DNA from: Clostridia bacterium
GTDB lineage: Bacteria; Bacillota; Clostridia; Oscillospirales; Acutalibacteraceae
Direction: 5' to 3'
DNA length: 64,000 bases
NCBI GenBank assembly: GCA_017415025.1
Contig: JAFQJH010000016.1
Location: forward strand, 91,438 to 155,437
Part shown: piece after piece, positions 38,024 through 51,488 of the stretch
Layout: each line of letters opens with the position of its first letter
Position numbering within the stretch: position 1 is the stretch's first letter
Notes under the pieces: generated by a model
What the model saw: only the letters and a program-made list of their open reading frames with translations
Database searches by the model: none
What the model was told of the DNA's origin: nothing
Translations under genes and position numbers: made by a program

Positions 38024-38824
38024 TTACTGAATCTGGTCAAGAGCTATTTCTTTGTAGCCTTTAAGGCTGAAGCAAGTCTCGTCAACGCCCTGTTTAAAAT
38101 CAACAATCTTCTGAATTCCGGCTTCTCCGTCAGCGGCAGAGCCGATCATCTTCCATTTGCCGTCCTTGAAGTAATAATCGGTAACAGAGCCGTCAGCGTG
38201 GCTGTAGCTTTCACGGATGTATTCTACGCCGTCAACCGTTACTTTTTCCGAGCCGACGTAAGTTGCCTTTTCGGGAGAACCGATTACAGTGTTGATTTCC
38301 TGATCGTTTTCAGCATAGAAGCCCTTAATCAAGCCCATTTCCATCGGAAAAACAAGATAAGTTTTGCCTTCAAGGCAGAGCACGCGGAGTGTTATCCCTT
38401 TAGCACCCGTTTCAACACAGATATCGTTGTTTCTGATCATAGCCGTTGCCGTTCTTACCTCGCCGTCAGCCTCGACCTCGGTTATAAAGGTGAATTTGCC
38501 CGTTTTTATAACAGGGTCAATGATCTGCGCCTTGTAGCTTGTAACAAGCTCGTCCTCGACCTCCAGGTCACCGTTATAGATACCGACAGCAATCATAAGC
38601 ACGGATAGAGCATCAACAGAGTTAATTCTGCCGTCACCGTTGATGTCCATATACTCTGTGTTTGCACCGTCGTTGAAGCCGACAGAGTGGCGGAGAATCA
38701 ATAGCGCGTCCGTTGAATTTGCTTTATTGTCAGAATTGACGTCACCTACAAGTCGTGCGTAAGCACCGACCGAGCAGGTAAGTGCAAATAAAATTACAAG
38801 AAAAAGTGAAATAAATCTTTTCAT
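38024..38824 (-). CDS. Secreted protein with N-terminal type I dockerin
   Basis: 266 residues. Signal peptide 1-23 (MKRFISLFLVILFALTCSVG). Directly after it lie two calcium-binding dockerin repeats: GDVNSDNKANSTDALLILRH (about 27-46) and DINGDGRINSVDALSVLMI (about 61-79), each with the Asp/Asn EF-loop and following helix. Residues about 95-266 form a beta-rich domain of unknown type, resembling lipoprotein-type folds. Dockerins normally sit at the C-terminus of cellulosomal enzymes; here it is N-terminal. No scaffoldin or cohesin is in this window. Confidence 0.85.
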   Translation of the reverse strand: MKRFISLFLVILFALTCSVGAYARLVGDVNSDNKANSTDALLILRHSVGFNDGANTEYMDINGDGRINSVDALSVLMIAVGIYNGDLEVEDELVTSYKAQIIDPVIKTGKFTFITEVEADGEVRTATAMIRNNDICVETGAKGITLRVLCLEGKTYLVFPMEMGLIKGFYAENDQEINTVIGSPEKATYVGSEKVTVDGVEYIRESYSHADGSVTDYYFKDGKWKMIGSAADGEAGIQKIVDFKQGVDETCFSLKGYKEIALDQIQ

Positions 38825-47307: not shown

Positions 47308-47336
47308 TTGACAAACCGAACAAATGTTCGTACAAT
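47308..47336 (+). promoter_or_regulatory. SOS promoter: LexA box inside the spacer
   Basis: TTGACA (47308-47313), exactly 17 bases, TACAAT (47331-47336). The spacer's last 14 bases, CGAACAAATGTTCG (47317-47330), are a perfect match to the Gram-positive LexA/DinR (Cheo) box CGAAC-N4-GTTCG. LexA bound there would block polymerase; RecA-stimulated cleavage after DNA damage would release it. Confidence 0.9.
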
Positions 47337-47341
47337 AATAA

Positions 47342-47419
47342 GTGGTCGGAATGACCGGGGTGACGATACTTAAGCTGTGCAGGGTTAGGGTTACTATCGT
47401 TACCCTAAGGACTCGCCAC
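47342..47419 (+). promoter_or_regulatory. Strongly folding leader RNA of the lysis operon
   Basis: GGGGTGACGATA (47357-47368) pairs over 12 bp (two G-U) with TATCGTTACCCT (47395-47406); GTGG (47342-47345) and CCAC (47416-47419) can close the outside. It begins right at the expected transcription start. The ribosome site AAGGAGG follows 20 bases downstream. Confidence 0.65.
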
Positions 47420-47448
47420 AAGGGAAAATAAATGAAAAGGAGGTAAAA

Positions 47449-48093
47449 ATGAAAAACATTTCCGACGAAGTAATTTCTGTCGAAGAGGCGAAAGCGGCTT
47501 TACGCTGTATGCGACTGGGCGGTTTTGACGAAAACGAAGCGCTCGAAAGCATTGACAGCCTCGTTGAGCGGATCAGAAAAATCGGAACTGCAAAGCTCGT
47601 CGATGACATTATCGAAACCCGATTGAGCGAAAACCAAAGAATATTCGTGCAGGAGTATTGGTTTTCGGGCAAGAGCACGGCGCAGATTGCGCGTGAAAGG
47701 GGAGTGTCACAGGCGAACGTCTATCGCACAGTGACCCGTGCGAACGAGACGATTGCAGAATTATTAAGACCGCTAGTAATGTATCACCGCGACCTGCCCG
47801 ATGTGCAGGTCGCACCGCTCTTTTTAGAGCAAATTATGGGCATTTGTTCCGCCCGAAGGAACAAGGGGGAAAATATCGGTACTCAGCTTAAGAATATTCG
47901 GATGAGCAATGCGGTAACGCCCGAGCAGGCAGCGAAGGCGATGTGCATTACCGTGAAAAAGCTTGAAAGCATCGAAAACTCAAAGGCTGAGCCTACACTT
48001 GAACTGCTGGAAAGATATTCGGCAGTTTTCGGCGTTCGCTTTAATTTCGAAATTGTGAACGGAAGGAGAAAATATGAATGGAAAAAACTTTAA
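47449..48093 (+). CDS. Dual-HTH regulator: sigma-70 region-4-like plus XRE
   Basis: 214 residues. Residues about 58-104 contain LSENQRIFVQEYWFSGKSTAQIARERGVSQANVYRTVTRA-like helices (SENQRIFVQEYW, TAQIARERGVSQANVYR), the region-4 HTH pattern seen in sigma factors and phage late regulators such as ArpU. Residues about 143-200 form an XRE-type HTH (TPEQAAKAMCITVKKLESIE). No core sigma regions 2-3. It is first in the LexA-controlled operon, ATG after AAGGAGG, and overlaps the next gene by 16 bases. It may regulate the lysis genes; this is inference. Confidence 0.7.
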   Translation: MKNISDEVISVEEAKAALRCMRLGGFDENEALESIDSLVERIRKIGTAKLVDDIIETRLSENQRIFVQEYWFSGKSTAQIARERGVSQANVYRTVTRANETIAELLRPLVMYHRDLPDVQVAPLFLEQIMGICSARRNKGENIGTQLKNIRMSNAVTPEQAAKAMCITVKKLESIENSKAEPTLELLERYSAVFGVRFNFEIVNGRRKYEWKKL

Positions 48094-48317
48094 CTCAACT
48101 CAGCGAAGATTATTTCAAGGCGGCTGAAGATATTAACAGCCTTATAATTAAGTACAGACGTCTCCTCAACGAAGCGTATGACTCGAATGATTATCTCAAA
48201 ACATACGAGCTTAAAAGAAAGCTCACTGTTTTTTATGACCAGAAAAGAGATATCCTCGACACGGCTTATGCGCTCAAAAACTATTATAAAAGATCCGAGG
48301 AGGTGATGTCTGCGTGA
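48078..48317 (+). CDS. Small coiled-coil protein of the lysis operon
   Basis: 79 residues, almost entirely helical and charged (LSEDYFKAAEDINSLIIKYR, YELKRKLTVFYDQKRDILD), predicted coiled coil. No membrane segment, no recognised motif. It starts inside the end of the regulator gene and its stop overlaps the GTG of the next gene. Possibly a chaperone or tail-assembly-type accessory protein, but I cannot assign a function. Confidence 0.7.
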   Translation: MEKTLTQLSEDYFKAAEDINSLIIKYRRLLNEAYDSNDYLKTYELKRKLTVFYDQKRDILDTAYALKNYYKRSEEVMSA

Positions 48318-50275
48318 ATAACCTCAGCTTGAAGGTTGTCGGCAACCGTCTTGAGGTTGTCAAGGACACATATTCGACGCAAAGCTGTGTGAACTACGAT
48401 TCGTGCAGCTTCAGCTTTGACGGTGAATGGGATTCCTTTGATAAAACAGCCGTTTTTGGCTTCGGAAATAATGACGTTATAAGAGTAAGCATTGAAAACG
48501 ACAACTGCAAAATTCCTGCGGATTGTATGAAAAAGGAGGGCTACATCCGTATCGGGGTTTACGGTATCAGCGAGGACGGAACTGTGATTGCAACCAACTG
48601 CATTGCTCACCGGATTGAAGAGGGCATTGAAGGACTCGGAGATTGGTTTGAAGGGGATAGCTGCTTTGTTTTTAATGCTCTTGAAGAAATCGAAGCTTCT
48701 CTGGAAAAATATAAGGAAAGCCTGGACAATCGCTTTGATACTCTTGCAAGTACGTTAGGCGGTGAGAATAGCGCAGCGTGTGAGCCGTCAGATTGGTATA
48801 TTCCCGAGCAGTTTGAGGATGCGGAGAATATACCGTCTTTCAGCAAAAAATCCTCTTACAGCGATTATCTCGATTACATCCTGAATCGCTTGGTACGCGA
48901 ATATCCCGATTATGTATCGCAGGAGCGTATCGGAACGGATGAAAGCGGAGAATACCCGATTTACGCCTATGTATTTGAGCCTGAAAACTATGAAAAAACG
49001 TTGTTTGTTGCGGCTTGTGTTGACGGTACGGAAAGCTCACCTTTGATAGCGCTCTCCTGTTTTCTTAACGATTTGTGCAGAAGAAGTTATGAAAACAGAA
49101 CGCTAGGGTGGCTTCGTTCAAGGGTGAAAATCGCAGTGGTACCTGCAGTTAATCCCTACGGTTTGCTGCTCAACAGTCCGCACAACATCAACGGTGTGCG
49201 TATTGACAGAAACTTTGATTTTATATGGTCAGAATGTACCGAGAGATATAAGGGCGATTCGGCGGCTGACCAAAAGGAAACTAAGGTTATTCAGAATTAT
49301 TTGCAAGCCTTGAGTGCGGATAAGCTGTGCGCGGCTGTTACTTTTAAGGACAACTCGAACCTCTATTCGAGCAAGATGCTCTTTTATCCGCGTTTCAGGA
49401 ATAATTGTCTTGAGGCGCTTACAAAAATGCTTTGCCGCTATAACTTTGAGGAAATGAGCGCGGATGACCTTCTTTCAAAAACAGTTCTCGCACCGTCACT
49501 CAATCCGACTCTTGCAAATTATGCCGCAGATAAATTCGGTGTCAATGCCTGTACGGTCAACTGGCCGTCGCTGTCCTACGGCGGTGTGCAGAATAATTCG
49601 GGCATAACAAAATTTACGGAGCTTATCGGTAACGTGATTTTTACTCTTGCAAAAAACAGCACCTTCACACGCCGCGGCGCGAAATTGCCTTTCACGAAGC
49701 ATTTTTCGTGGCGCAGTACGGATGACAACGATGTGTTTACTGTTCCGCAGGCGCAGTCTTTTAAGAAAGCTCCGATTACGTCATATCAGCTCGATCTGGA
49801 AGCGCCTTGTAACGTGACGGCAAACGGATACGCGATTATAAGGGCAGAAAATCCCTGTACCGTCCGTATAAATCCTCTGCTCTGGCAGAACAGCTCACCT
49901 GAACAGACGTATTCAGACCGCCTGAATATGACGGATTTTATTGTTGAAATCCCTCTTTTAGCAGGTACTACCGTAATTCCCTTTGATTCTGTTTTGCAGG
50001 GTTATTACAGCGAAAATAACGGACTTATCACCTCGGGATATCCCGAAAAGCTTAACTTCAGCCTCGGCGTATGTGCAGATACGGCATCCGCGGCAAAGCT
50101 TATAGGCTTTTCTGTCACTCTTAACGCTTTCCCGAGCGATATCGGCAGGTCGGTTGAAATAAGCCGTCCGATGGGTACGGCGGGCGATTATACCTCGGCT
50201 GATGATATACCGACTCAAGTACTGTCCTACCCGAAGGAAACGCTGATATCAGGCGAAAACAGCTATTTTGATTGA
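48314..50275 (+). CDS. Baseplate-like N-terminus fused to degenerate M14-carboxypeptidase-like domain
   Basis: 653 residues. Residues 1-100 (SFSFDGEWDSF, KIPADCMKKEGYIRIGVYG) resemble the N-terminal beta domain of phage baseplate upper/tail-attachment proteins. A short coiled coil (about 118-145) follows. Residues about 178-455 resemble zinc carboxypeptidases: the HxxE motif position reads DGTE (237-240), NPYGLLLN and RNFD (299-302) match substrate-binding motifs, but the first zinc His is Asp and no other zinc ligands are clear, so it may be inactive or use another metal. Residues about 455-653 are beta-rich. GTG start, AGGAGGTG upstream. No signal peptide. Confidence 0.65.
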   Translation: MNNLSLKVVGNRLEVVKDTYSTQSCVNYDSCSFSFDGEWDSFDKTAVFGFGNNDVIRVSIENDNCKIPADCMKKEGYIRIGVYGISEDGTVIATNCIAHRIEEGIEGLGDWFEGDSCFVFNALEEIEASLEKYKESLDNRFDTLASTLGGENSAACEPSDWYIPEQFEDAENIPSFSKKSSYSDYLDYILNRLVREYPDYVSQERIGTDESGEYPIYAYVFEPENYEKTLFVAACVDGTESSPLIALSCFLNDLCRRSYENRTLGWLRSRVKIAVVPAVNPYGLLLNSPHNINGVRIDRNFDFIWSECTERYKGDSAADQKETKVIQNYLQALSADKLCAAVTFKDNSNLYSSKMLFYPRFRNNCLEALTKMLCRYNFEEMSADDLLSKTVLAPSLNPTLANYAADKFGVNACTVNWPSLSYGGVQNNSGITKFTELIGNVIFTLAKNSTFTRRGAKLPFTKHFSWRSTDDNDVFTVPQAQSFKKAPITSYQLDLEAPCNVTANGYAIIRAENPCTVRINPLLWQNSSPEQTYSDRLNMTDFIVEIPLLAGTTVIPFDSVLQGYYSENNGLITSGYPEKLNFSLGVCADTASAAKLIGFSVTLNAFPSDIGRSVEISRPMGTAGDYTSADDIPTQVLSYPKETLISGENSYFD

Positions 50276-50293
50276 TAGGGGAAAAGAAAACAA

Positions 50294-50986
50294 ATGAGCA
50301 AAATTACTAATATTATTTTTAACGGCAAGAGCCACTACATAACGTCCAAATACGGCAAGCGTACCGTGCTTAAAACTGCGGCAGGAGCTACAAGCTCATT
50401 TCACAACGGAACCGATTACGGCACAAACGGCAAAAAGCTCGCACAATATGCAATCGAGGACGGCAGTGTTTTAAGCTGCGGAAAGGCATCCGACGGCGCG
50501 TTGTACGTCTGGGTGAAATATCCGAGAATCAACAAAAAGATGCTTCACTATCACCTTGACAGTGTCAAGGTCAAGTCAGGGCAGAGTGTTAAAAAGGGTA
50601 CGCTTCTCGGCTATACGGGTAAAACGGGCAAGGCGACGGGTGTGCATCTTCATCTTGGTGTCAAAGACCTCACGACAGACAAATATGAAGACCCCGAGGC
50701 TTTTGCAAAAGGCTATACAGAGCCGAAGGTATACAAAACAGGCAACTATAAGGTGACAGCTACGCTTTTAAGGGTCAGGCGCGGGCCCTCCACAGATTAT
50801 GACTATAAAAAGTTCTCGTTTCTTACTCCGAATGCACAGTCACAGATAAAAAAGCTGAACTCGGGCAGCAGGGCAGACGGACTTGTCAAGGACTGTGTAT
50901 GTACGGTTTCGGAGGTTAAAAACAATTGGGGCAAAATTCCCTCGGGCTGGGTTTGCCTTGATTACTGTAAGGCGGTGACAAGATGA
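50294..50986 (+). CDS. M23 endolysin with SH3-type cell-wall-binding domain
   Basis: 230 residues, no signal peptide. M23/LytM zinc motifs: HNGTDYG (His37, Asp41), HYHL (His85, His87) and HLHLG (His118, His120). A C-terminal SH3-like domain (about 150-228; LLRVRRGPSTDYD) should bind peptidoglycan. It would cut peptide cross-bridges. Lack of a signal peptide and the two adjacent holin-type genes indicate release through membrane lesions, as in phage lysis systems. Confidence 0.9.
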   Translation: MSKITNIIFNGKSHYITSKYGKRTVLKTAAGATSSFHNGTDYGTNGKKLAQYAIEDGSVLSCGKASDGALYVWVKYPRINKKMLHYHLDSVKVKSGQSVKKGTLLGYTGKTGKATGVHLHLGVKDLTTDKYEDPEAFAKGYTEPKVYKTGNYKVTATLLRVRRGPSTDYDYKKFSFLTPNAQSQIKKLNSGSRADGLVKDCVCTVSEVKNNWGKIPSGWVCLDYCKAVTR

Positions 50987-51204
50987 CAGATATCTTAACG
51001 GCAATCATTGCTTTTGCAGGCACTCTCGTCGGCTCACTGGGCGGAATACTTGCCGCCAACCGACTTACGGTTTACCGAATTGAACAACTTGAAAATAAGG
51101 TTTCAAAGCACAACAATCTTGTTGAAAGAATGTTTCTTGTTGAAAGCTCGGCAAAATCCGCGCATCACAGAATTGACGAATTAAGAGAGGAGATAACAAA
51201 ATGA
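50983..51204 (+). CDS. XhlA-like small phage lysis protein
   Basis: 73 residues: one N-terminal transmembrane helix (about 4-27, Gly-rich), then a helical coiled coil with LTVYRIEQLENKVSKHNNLVERM and HRIDELREEI. This order and sequence type match XhlA/haemolysin-like proteins found next to holins in Firmicutes phages. It overlaps both neighbours by 4 bases (ATGA), indicating coupled translation with the endolysin and holin. Confidence 0.8.
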   Translation: MTDILTAIIAFAGTLVGSLGGILAANRLTVYRIEQLENKVSKHNNLVERMFLVESSAKSAHHRIDELREEITK

Positions 51205-51449
51205 AAAAACTGAATCTTAAGGGTGTATCAATGCAGACGTGGGTGAGGACAGGTGTGCTTATTCTTGCACTCATCAATCAGGCTCTTGTAATGTTCGGAA
51301 TTTCAAAAGCTGAAATTGAGCTTGAGCAGTGGGCTGAATATGCATCCTACATTTTTACGGCAGTTACCGCAATCTGGTCGTGGTGGAAGAATAACAGCTT
51401 CACCGCTAAAGCACAGAAAGCGGATGCTATGATAAATTCGCAGAGATAA
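51201..51449 (+). CDS. Phage holin, SPP1 family
   Basis: 82 residues. Two membrane helices (about 14-32 and 45-62) and the C-terminal WSWWKNNSFTAKAQKADAMI, whose W-x-N-N-S-F-T pattern is characteristic of SPP1/LL-H-type holins. It would form lesions letting the endolysin reach the wall. Last gene of the operon; strong terminator two bases after its stop. Confidence 0.88.
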   Translation: MKKLNLKGVSMQTWVRTGVLILALINQALVMFGISKAEIELEQWAEYASYIFTAVTAIWSWWKNNSFTAKAQKADAMINSQR

Positions 51450-51450
51450 T

Positions 51451-51488
51451 AAAACGGTGCAGTCCCAAACAGGACTGCACCGTTTTTT
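51451..51488. terminator. Bidirectional terminator between lysis operon and XRE-TPR gene
   Basis: AAAACGGTGCAGTCC / GGACTGCACCGTTTT with loop CAAACA, T runs on both strands. Confidence 0.92.

Follow-up and report, generated by a model that had tools for sequence, protein, structure and literature searches.

A conserved LexA-box lysis operon in a genus of Clostridia, probable release arm of a scattered element resembling a gene transfer agent

A six-gene lysis operon with a LexA box in its promoter was analyzed in a 64,000-nucleotide stretch of DNA (the window) from a Clostridia bacterium of the family Acutalibacteraceae. The operon is real, conserved and probably governed by the SOS response. 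We put at roughly three in four the probability that a domesticated phage element, scattered over three or more loci and of the same kind as the gene transfer agent (GTA) of Faecalibacterium prausnitzii (FpGTA), has in this operon its arm for regulation, surface protein and release. The three loci are the operon with its LexA box, an eight-gene capsid block, and a LexA-box promoter before a tail-like gene. What is new here is the promoter logic, that is, a LexA box placed between the −35 and −10 elements and found also upstream of g1 in other genera.

Organization of the operon and its products

The features of the operon are collected in Table 1. As the original prediction had read from the letters of the window, a perfect Cheo-type LexA box lies in the 17-base promoter spacer, the six genes are packed with overlaps of 16, 4, 4, and 4 bases and a single 18-base gap, and a terminator-like stem closes the unit. 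By number alone, perfect boxes are no commoner in the genome than the control (3 versus 3 for the reversed pattern), and the case for the LexA box therefore rests on its position and conservation. The combined pattern of box and −35 was found 68 times over the 18 genomes of the genus versus 35 times in the control, and several of these 68 matches are likely due to chance. Rfam searches of the operon returned two matches below the gathering threshold, which were taken as chance.

Table 1. Features of the lysis operon (positions within the window)
Feature	Position	Strand	Basis or remark
Promoter, sigma-70 type, TTGACA-17-TACAAT	47308..47336	+	11/12 consensus positions; −35 TTGACA at 47308-47313, −10 TACAAT at 47331-47336, 17-nt spacer
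LexA (Cheo-type) box, CGAACAAATGTTCG	47317..47330	+	Entirely within the promoter spacer
g1, two-domain regulator	47449..48093	+	Sigma-70 region-4-like domain, then XRE HTH
g2, 79 aa, no assigned function, directly after g1	48078..48317	+	ORF
g3, tail-like N-domain (phrog_19695) and M14-fold domain, HxxE broken	48314..50275	+	Family matches
g4, M23 endolysin	50294..50986	+	Peptidase_M23; HxxxD and HxH in sequence
g5, 73 aa, phrog_1863; putative holin accessory by position only	50983..51204	+	phrog_1863 match
g6, SPP1-type holin	51201..51449	+	PF04688 Holin_SPP1, 1.6e-25
Terminator-like hairpin at operon end, 16-pair stem	51451..51486		Predicted stem

Family matches bear out the labels first given to g1 (regulator), g3 (M14-like protein), g4 (M23 endolysin; Peptidase_M23, 4e-14), and g6 (SPP1 holin), but neither the SH3 domain proposed for g4 nor the XhlA identity proposed for g5 found a match in the family searches; g5 belongs only to phrog_1863, a family without assigned function. 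No signal peptide was evident by eye in g4. The regulator g1 matches HTH_31/HTH_3 and, below threshold, sigma-70 region 4. Its AlphaFold model (mean pLDDT of 78.5) retrieved no fold match at E 0.001 or better, the best ones being weak (E 0.03) and to XRE HTH and sigma −35-binding domains. Orthologues with 35 to 85% identity are present in 16 other genomes of the genus. Its gene position, its domains, and a hairpin/T-run/CTATARGTGA element before TerS make g1 a candidate activator of the capsid operon.

The 653-residue g3 product gave matches to Peptidase_M14 (1e-9) and phrog_4722 (1e-57). The M14 zinc motif HxxE is intact in 3 of 13 aligned full-length proteins (L035, L038, and L039) and broken in the rest, including that of the window, so that this domain probably binds rather than cuts. 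Judged from these domains, g3 is a probable particle-surface or receptor-binding protein. The original prediction had offered this protein, or a tail-like particle encoded elsewhere, as the cargo to be released. Given the broken motif in the window's version, a surface protein is the better reading of g3, and a capsid is the most likely cargo. The idea of a cargo encoded elsewhere survives, since a capsid block is indeed found on another contig.

Conservation of the locus within the genus

Searches with g3 found a match in all 18 genomes of the genus, and all six genes stand in the same order in 16 of the 18 loci fetched. A contig end falls inside g3 in G017. In G002 the locus is split over two contigs that carry g1, g2, g3, and g5, and no match to g4 or g6 was obtained in this genome; there, the g5 match (L047:8-428) comes right after g3 ends, leaving no space for g4. 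The variable part of the operon is g3, of which some 120 to 130 N-terminal residues remain in G009 and G015 and which is interrupted in G013.

The flanks of the operon are varied within the genus and not phage-like. In the subclade of the window, one flank carries fusA, tuf, and a GH-like gene and the opposite flank gpmI, accompanied or not by an HTH-TPR gene; elsewhere in the genus, a biotin-ligase-like gene (three genomes) or a glmU-like gene (one genome) was seen, all of these names being given by eye. The original expectation of a LexA-box lysis operon conserved in relatives at ordinary chromosomal sites is thus confirmed. Its description as an operon "without a phage" holds for the immediate surroundings, where no phage block was found, but not for the genome, which carries a capsid and packaging block at another locus. 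The contiguous head, tail, lysis, and integrase genes of an intact prophage were not found together, the head block being on another contig, and in the stretches read next to the two loci no integrase or replication gene was recognized by eye.

LexA boxes and a self-cleaving repressor at the promoter

Of the 17 promoters of the genus that could be read, 16 have a LexA-type box between −35 and −10, 14 of them with GAACN4GTTC and 2 with one mismatch. The promoter of G002 is without a box, and that of G017, at a contig end, was left out of the count. All 18 genomes have a LexA gene, and a related box precedes lexA in each of the 13 upstream regions that could be read (the other five of the 18 loci did not fit the start pattern), in 12 cases as GCAAACAAATGTTTG.

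A divergent gene for an XRE-S24 repressor of about 200 residues accompanies the operon at 12 loci of the genus (PF00717, 1e-29 for the one protein tested). The patterns required for self-cleavage (Ala-Gly bond, Ser, and Lys) were matched in all 12 repressors examined, and AATAG-N5-CTATT-like repeats, a candidate operator, were seen by eye at the transcription start of the same loci. In G000, which is the genome of the window, and in G003, G008, and G009 both the repressor gene and the repeat are missing and CGAACAAATGTTCG is present. Searches of these four genomes, which are 68 to 84% complete, gave no repressor match at E 1e-25; the same result was obtained for G017, of comparable completeness, but there the locus is cut by the contig end. 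In a tree of operon proteins from 16 genomes, the four LexA-only genomes form one group (support of 0.96), which fits a single loss of the repressor; the tree of the LexA protein is too weakly resolved to show single versus multiple losses. From these promoters we infer, as originally proposed, that DNA damage induces the operon.

The promoter and box pattern has three matches in G000, namely, this operon, a DinB-like polymerase (by eye), and a gene for a 460-residue protein with an N-domain of the phrog_19695 type, like that of g3. A gene similar to the 460-residue one (453 to 473 residues, by eye) follows a box in ten genomes of the genus (G000, G001, G003, G004, G005, G008, G010, G012, G013, and G014).

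Outside the genus, the 330 nt preceding g1 contain a LexA box with no more than one mismatch in 12 of 18 g1 loci; nine of these have at least one strict box and three a box with one mismatch. Ten strict boxes were observed in these upstream regions versus 0.08 expected. The six loci without a box are L257 and L261, both of which have a divergent S24-like repressor, and L260, L262, L273, and L274, the last with a g1 match that contains an internal stop and is perhaps not a genuine g1.

A capsid and packaging block at a separate locus

On a separate contig of G000 (C24), beside rpsI, eight genes encode TerS, TerL, portal, protease, capsid, and three small connector proteins. TerS, TerL, portal, capsid, and adaptor were recognized by Pfam/PHROGs. 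The block is found in 16 of the 18 genomes; in 15 of them it is complete, its eight genes keeping one order, and in G005 it is cut by a contig end. Portal searches, in which most matches fell under the family cutoff, gave one portal of this type per genome in the same proportion (16/18), and no match in G002 and G003 (61% and 84% complete), though operon genes are present in both. A second, strong portal in G008 (C38:106745-107725) may belong to a separate ordinary prophage.

The third small gene of the G000 block is poorly defined, with an uncertain frame. The last gene of the block joins an N-part and a C-part that stand about 5 kb apart in some relatives (e.g., L128), and for this reason its product has the appearance of a tail-terminator-like protein fused to a fibre-like one. 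The window contains no match to any of the eight proteins of the block. A secreted-looking protein of 774 residues follows the block in G000 (L063:9618-11942, minus strand) and in several relatives of the subclade, and has a weak match in the window at 38549-38752.

TerS is often preceded by a hairpin and T-run and then by an element similar to CTATARGTGARRG, as seen on the minus strand of L063 (above 18576) and among 71 loci of L105-L184. With up to two mismatches, CTATARGTGARRG occurs in 26 of 71 TerS upstream regions versus 11 of 710 random windows, a comparison that is not independent because the motif was derived from the same data. The hairpin before it has a mean MFE of −14.8 versus −6.7 for shuffled sequences (50 of the 71 loci examined). 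This element could be a late promoter, an operator, an insulator, or an attenuator. The 34 kb read around the G000 block contain no GAACN4GTTC, and hence control of the capsid block by g1 is something we only infer.

Relatives of the block offer a view of its origin. In the distant relative L154, LysM and Baseplate_J genes come after the block, and in L306 genes for a sheath C-terminal domain (PF17482), a gp44-like hub, LysM, and Baseplate_J do so, which suggests a myovirus-like ancestor whose tail may have been reduced stepwise. Behind its head and baseplate genes, L154 also has a relative of g1, a sigma-region-4 gene of 96 residues (L154:13878-14168). Within the genus, Baseplate_J (PF04865) was found in 0 of 18 genomes, which leaves DNA entry into a recipient unexplained under the GTA reading. 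The sheath family PF04984 was likewise found in 0 of 18 above the cutoff, with one match below it in G009; the sheath of L306 belongs to a different family, PF17482, and a sheath of that kind may yet be present in the genus. The tape-measure family PF10145 is present in 3 of 18 genomes (G009, G014, and G017) and absent from that of the window; these matches (G009:C16, G014:C14 and C72, and G017:C129) may come from separate prophages.

The tail genes bear directly on the alternative of a killing particle akin to PBSX or the tailocins, in which particles of capsid and fibre would adsorb to and kill relatives, being released by the operon and delivering no DNA. The myovirus-like tail genes behind the head block of L306, the one relative seen in detail, which we take to be PBSX-like, are in its favor. 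Within the genus itself, however, Baseplate_J and above-cutoff PF04984 sheath are missing, and a capsid with conserved terminases and no recognized tail is better suited to packaging DNA. We regard the killing particle as unlikely, although the strongest of the alternatives; the paper on FpGTA leaves such a role open for that element also (PMC12946183).

Inheritance, selection, and distribution of the two loci

The GTA reading is further informed by how the two loci evolve. Protein distances between genomes correlate for portal and g1 (r = 0.93; 15 genomes) and for portal and LexA (r = 0.87; 16 genomes), each with a Mantel p of 0.001 over 999 permutations, and r ranged from 0.74 to 0.93 across the comparisons. 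Such correlations speak against mobility more than for an interaction, since any vertically inherited pair would show the same. dN/dS values were 0.054 to 0.123 for the six largest of the eight genes in the capsid block (G000/G009) and 0.042 to 0.159 for g1 to g6 (G000/G003), with synonymous sites near saturation in several genes. Both loci diverge as the host does, under purifying selection. As is characteristic of GTAs, phage-type packaging and capsid genes are part of the chromosome (16 of 18 genomes), vertically inherited and kept by selection.

The original prediction favored a DNA-damage-triggered lysis switch, perhaps altruistic. In this scenario, the operon would be a stand-alone suicide device and the capsid block an unrelated relic. 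The operon is by itself complete for lysis, and G003 has all six genes with no portal detected, but the two loci co-occur, diverge similarly, and are both under purifying selection, and a tail-like gene stands behind another LexA box. With a conserved capsid block and this second tail-like gene in the genome, altruistic lysis is not supported as the main function, and we consider a free-standing switch improbable. An ordinary prophage was rejected on account of the conserved gene order, low dN/dS, and host-like divergence. Decaying remnants of one are the least probable source, for while the parts are of phage origin and g3 is interrupted in G013 and shortened in G009 and G015, the order is the same in 15 to 16 species, dN/dS is 0.04 to 0.16, divergence is host-like, and no integrase or replication gene was recognized by eye in the stretches read.

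The portal type is widespread. At 1e-20 it was found in 112 of 200 sampled genomes of the family (79 of 135 genera) and in 70 of 394 sampled genomes of the order, with one match in each. A collection of named genomes yielded 460 loci with portal relatives; the 80 that were kept have protease in 80, TerL in 77, capsid in 76, and TerS in 74, and their titles name uncultured Clostridia, Clostridiales, Oscillospiraceae, Ruminococcaceae, and similar taxa. The regulator g1 is rarer: it is found in 21 of the 200 family genomes, 20 of which have the portal (the one without it being G156, a genome 56% complete), compared with 92 of 179 genomes without g1 (Fisher p = 9e-5). Conversely, 92 of the 112 portal-bearing genomes have no g1 at the threshold used. 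Among the 18 g1 loci listed from other genera, many have g1-g2 and then differing endolysins and small proteins; NlpC/P60 in L257 and amidase in L264 were confirmed by family, the other endolysins being named by eye.

Comparison with known gene transfer agents

FpGTA is described as a GTA in two operons (Borodovich et al., Nat Commun 2026, January; PMC12946183). The first carries TerS, TerL, portal, scaffold, and capsid genes, and the second, of 5.5 kb, structural and receptor-binding genes, holin, and endolysin; the particles have 40-nm capsids and contain ~9 kb of DNA, and DNA transfer to recipients is unproven for them also. The likeness to the present element, also of gut Clostridia, is in the head block (G000:C24) and the fibre-plus-lysis block (C17) at separate loci, and is a likeness of described layout. 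In contrast to FpGTA as described, the operon analyzed here starts with a two-domain regulator, has a LexA box, and lacks a Baseplate_J gene, although the "baseplate" gene of FpGTA operon II may be of a family other than PF04865 (0/18 here). The text of the paper makes no mention of "LexA," "repressor," or "promoter," while its discussion holds GTAs in general to be likely SOS inducible. FpGTA is there reported with neither regulator nor promoter, and the present work proposes a specific switch, made of the LexA box, the S24 repressor, and g1.

The GTAs of Rhodobacter capsulatus and CcGTA (RcGTA/CcGTA; PMC6363796 and PMC9632790) also have GTA genes at several loci and a lysis cassette, in Alphaproteobacteria. 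Their activator GafA, with an HTH and a sigma-like part, resembles g1 when the two are set side by side by description. Their RogA is an S24-type repressor that is without key cleavage residues, whereas the genus repressor keeps them. In R. capsulatus LexA acts via CckA, whereas here the box sits in the promoter. In silico LexA sites have been described at a GTA cluster in Dinoroseobacter shibae, so that a link between LexA and GTAs is as such not new; no report of LexA control of the present element was found in the open literature searched.

PBSX of Bacillus subtilis is a mitomycin-inducible, GTA-like element. PBSX occupies one contiguous locus and has a contractile tail. The element described here differs in its scattered loci and in the lack of Baseplate_J in the genus.

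Proposed mode of action

Under the GTA reading, DNA damage would activate RecA, upon which LexA, and in most of the genus the divergent self-cleaving S24 repressor as well, would leave the promoter. The g1 product would then activate the capsid operon at the conserved element before TerS, and the capsids would take up host DNA. Holin and endolysin would burst the cell, and g3 and the protein of the third locus might serve as adhesins of the particles.

We also entertain, tentatively and with slightly less than even confidence, a broader proposal. An SOS-wired, tail-reduced GTA would be widespread in a major gut order, with an ancestral promoter under both LexA and a self-cleaving phage-type repressor. 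The clade of the window would have lost repressor and operator once, leaving host LexA alone in charge. Packaging, lysis, and the release of pieces of the chromosome would then be under the direct command of DNA damage, and g1 would represent a GTA activator of a new class, with the conserved hairpin and CTATARGTGA before TerS as its site of action. If true, DNA damage would be tied to gene exchange among gut bacteria, over a range indicated by the 79 genera with the portal among 135 sampled in the family, and a domesticated phage would have moved from its own repressor to the LexA of its host.

Related elements filed as viruses

Among IMG/VR contigs, 80 "viral" entries with the portal were kept (L275-L354), with protease in 80, capsid in 77, and TerL in 76; some of these entries may in fact represent chromosomal elements that have been domesticated. 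MT835508.1 (46.7 kb, human faecal, "Bacteriophage sp.") is bacterial chromosome, judging by eye from ribosomal protein genes and others, and carries the capsid block (L103:18969-25072), the five main genes with 39 to 60% identity. This hints at packaging of host DNA if the sequence came from purified particles; mis-sorting on account of its phage-like genes would explain it equally well.
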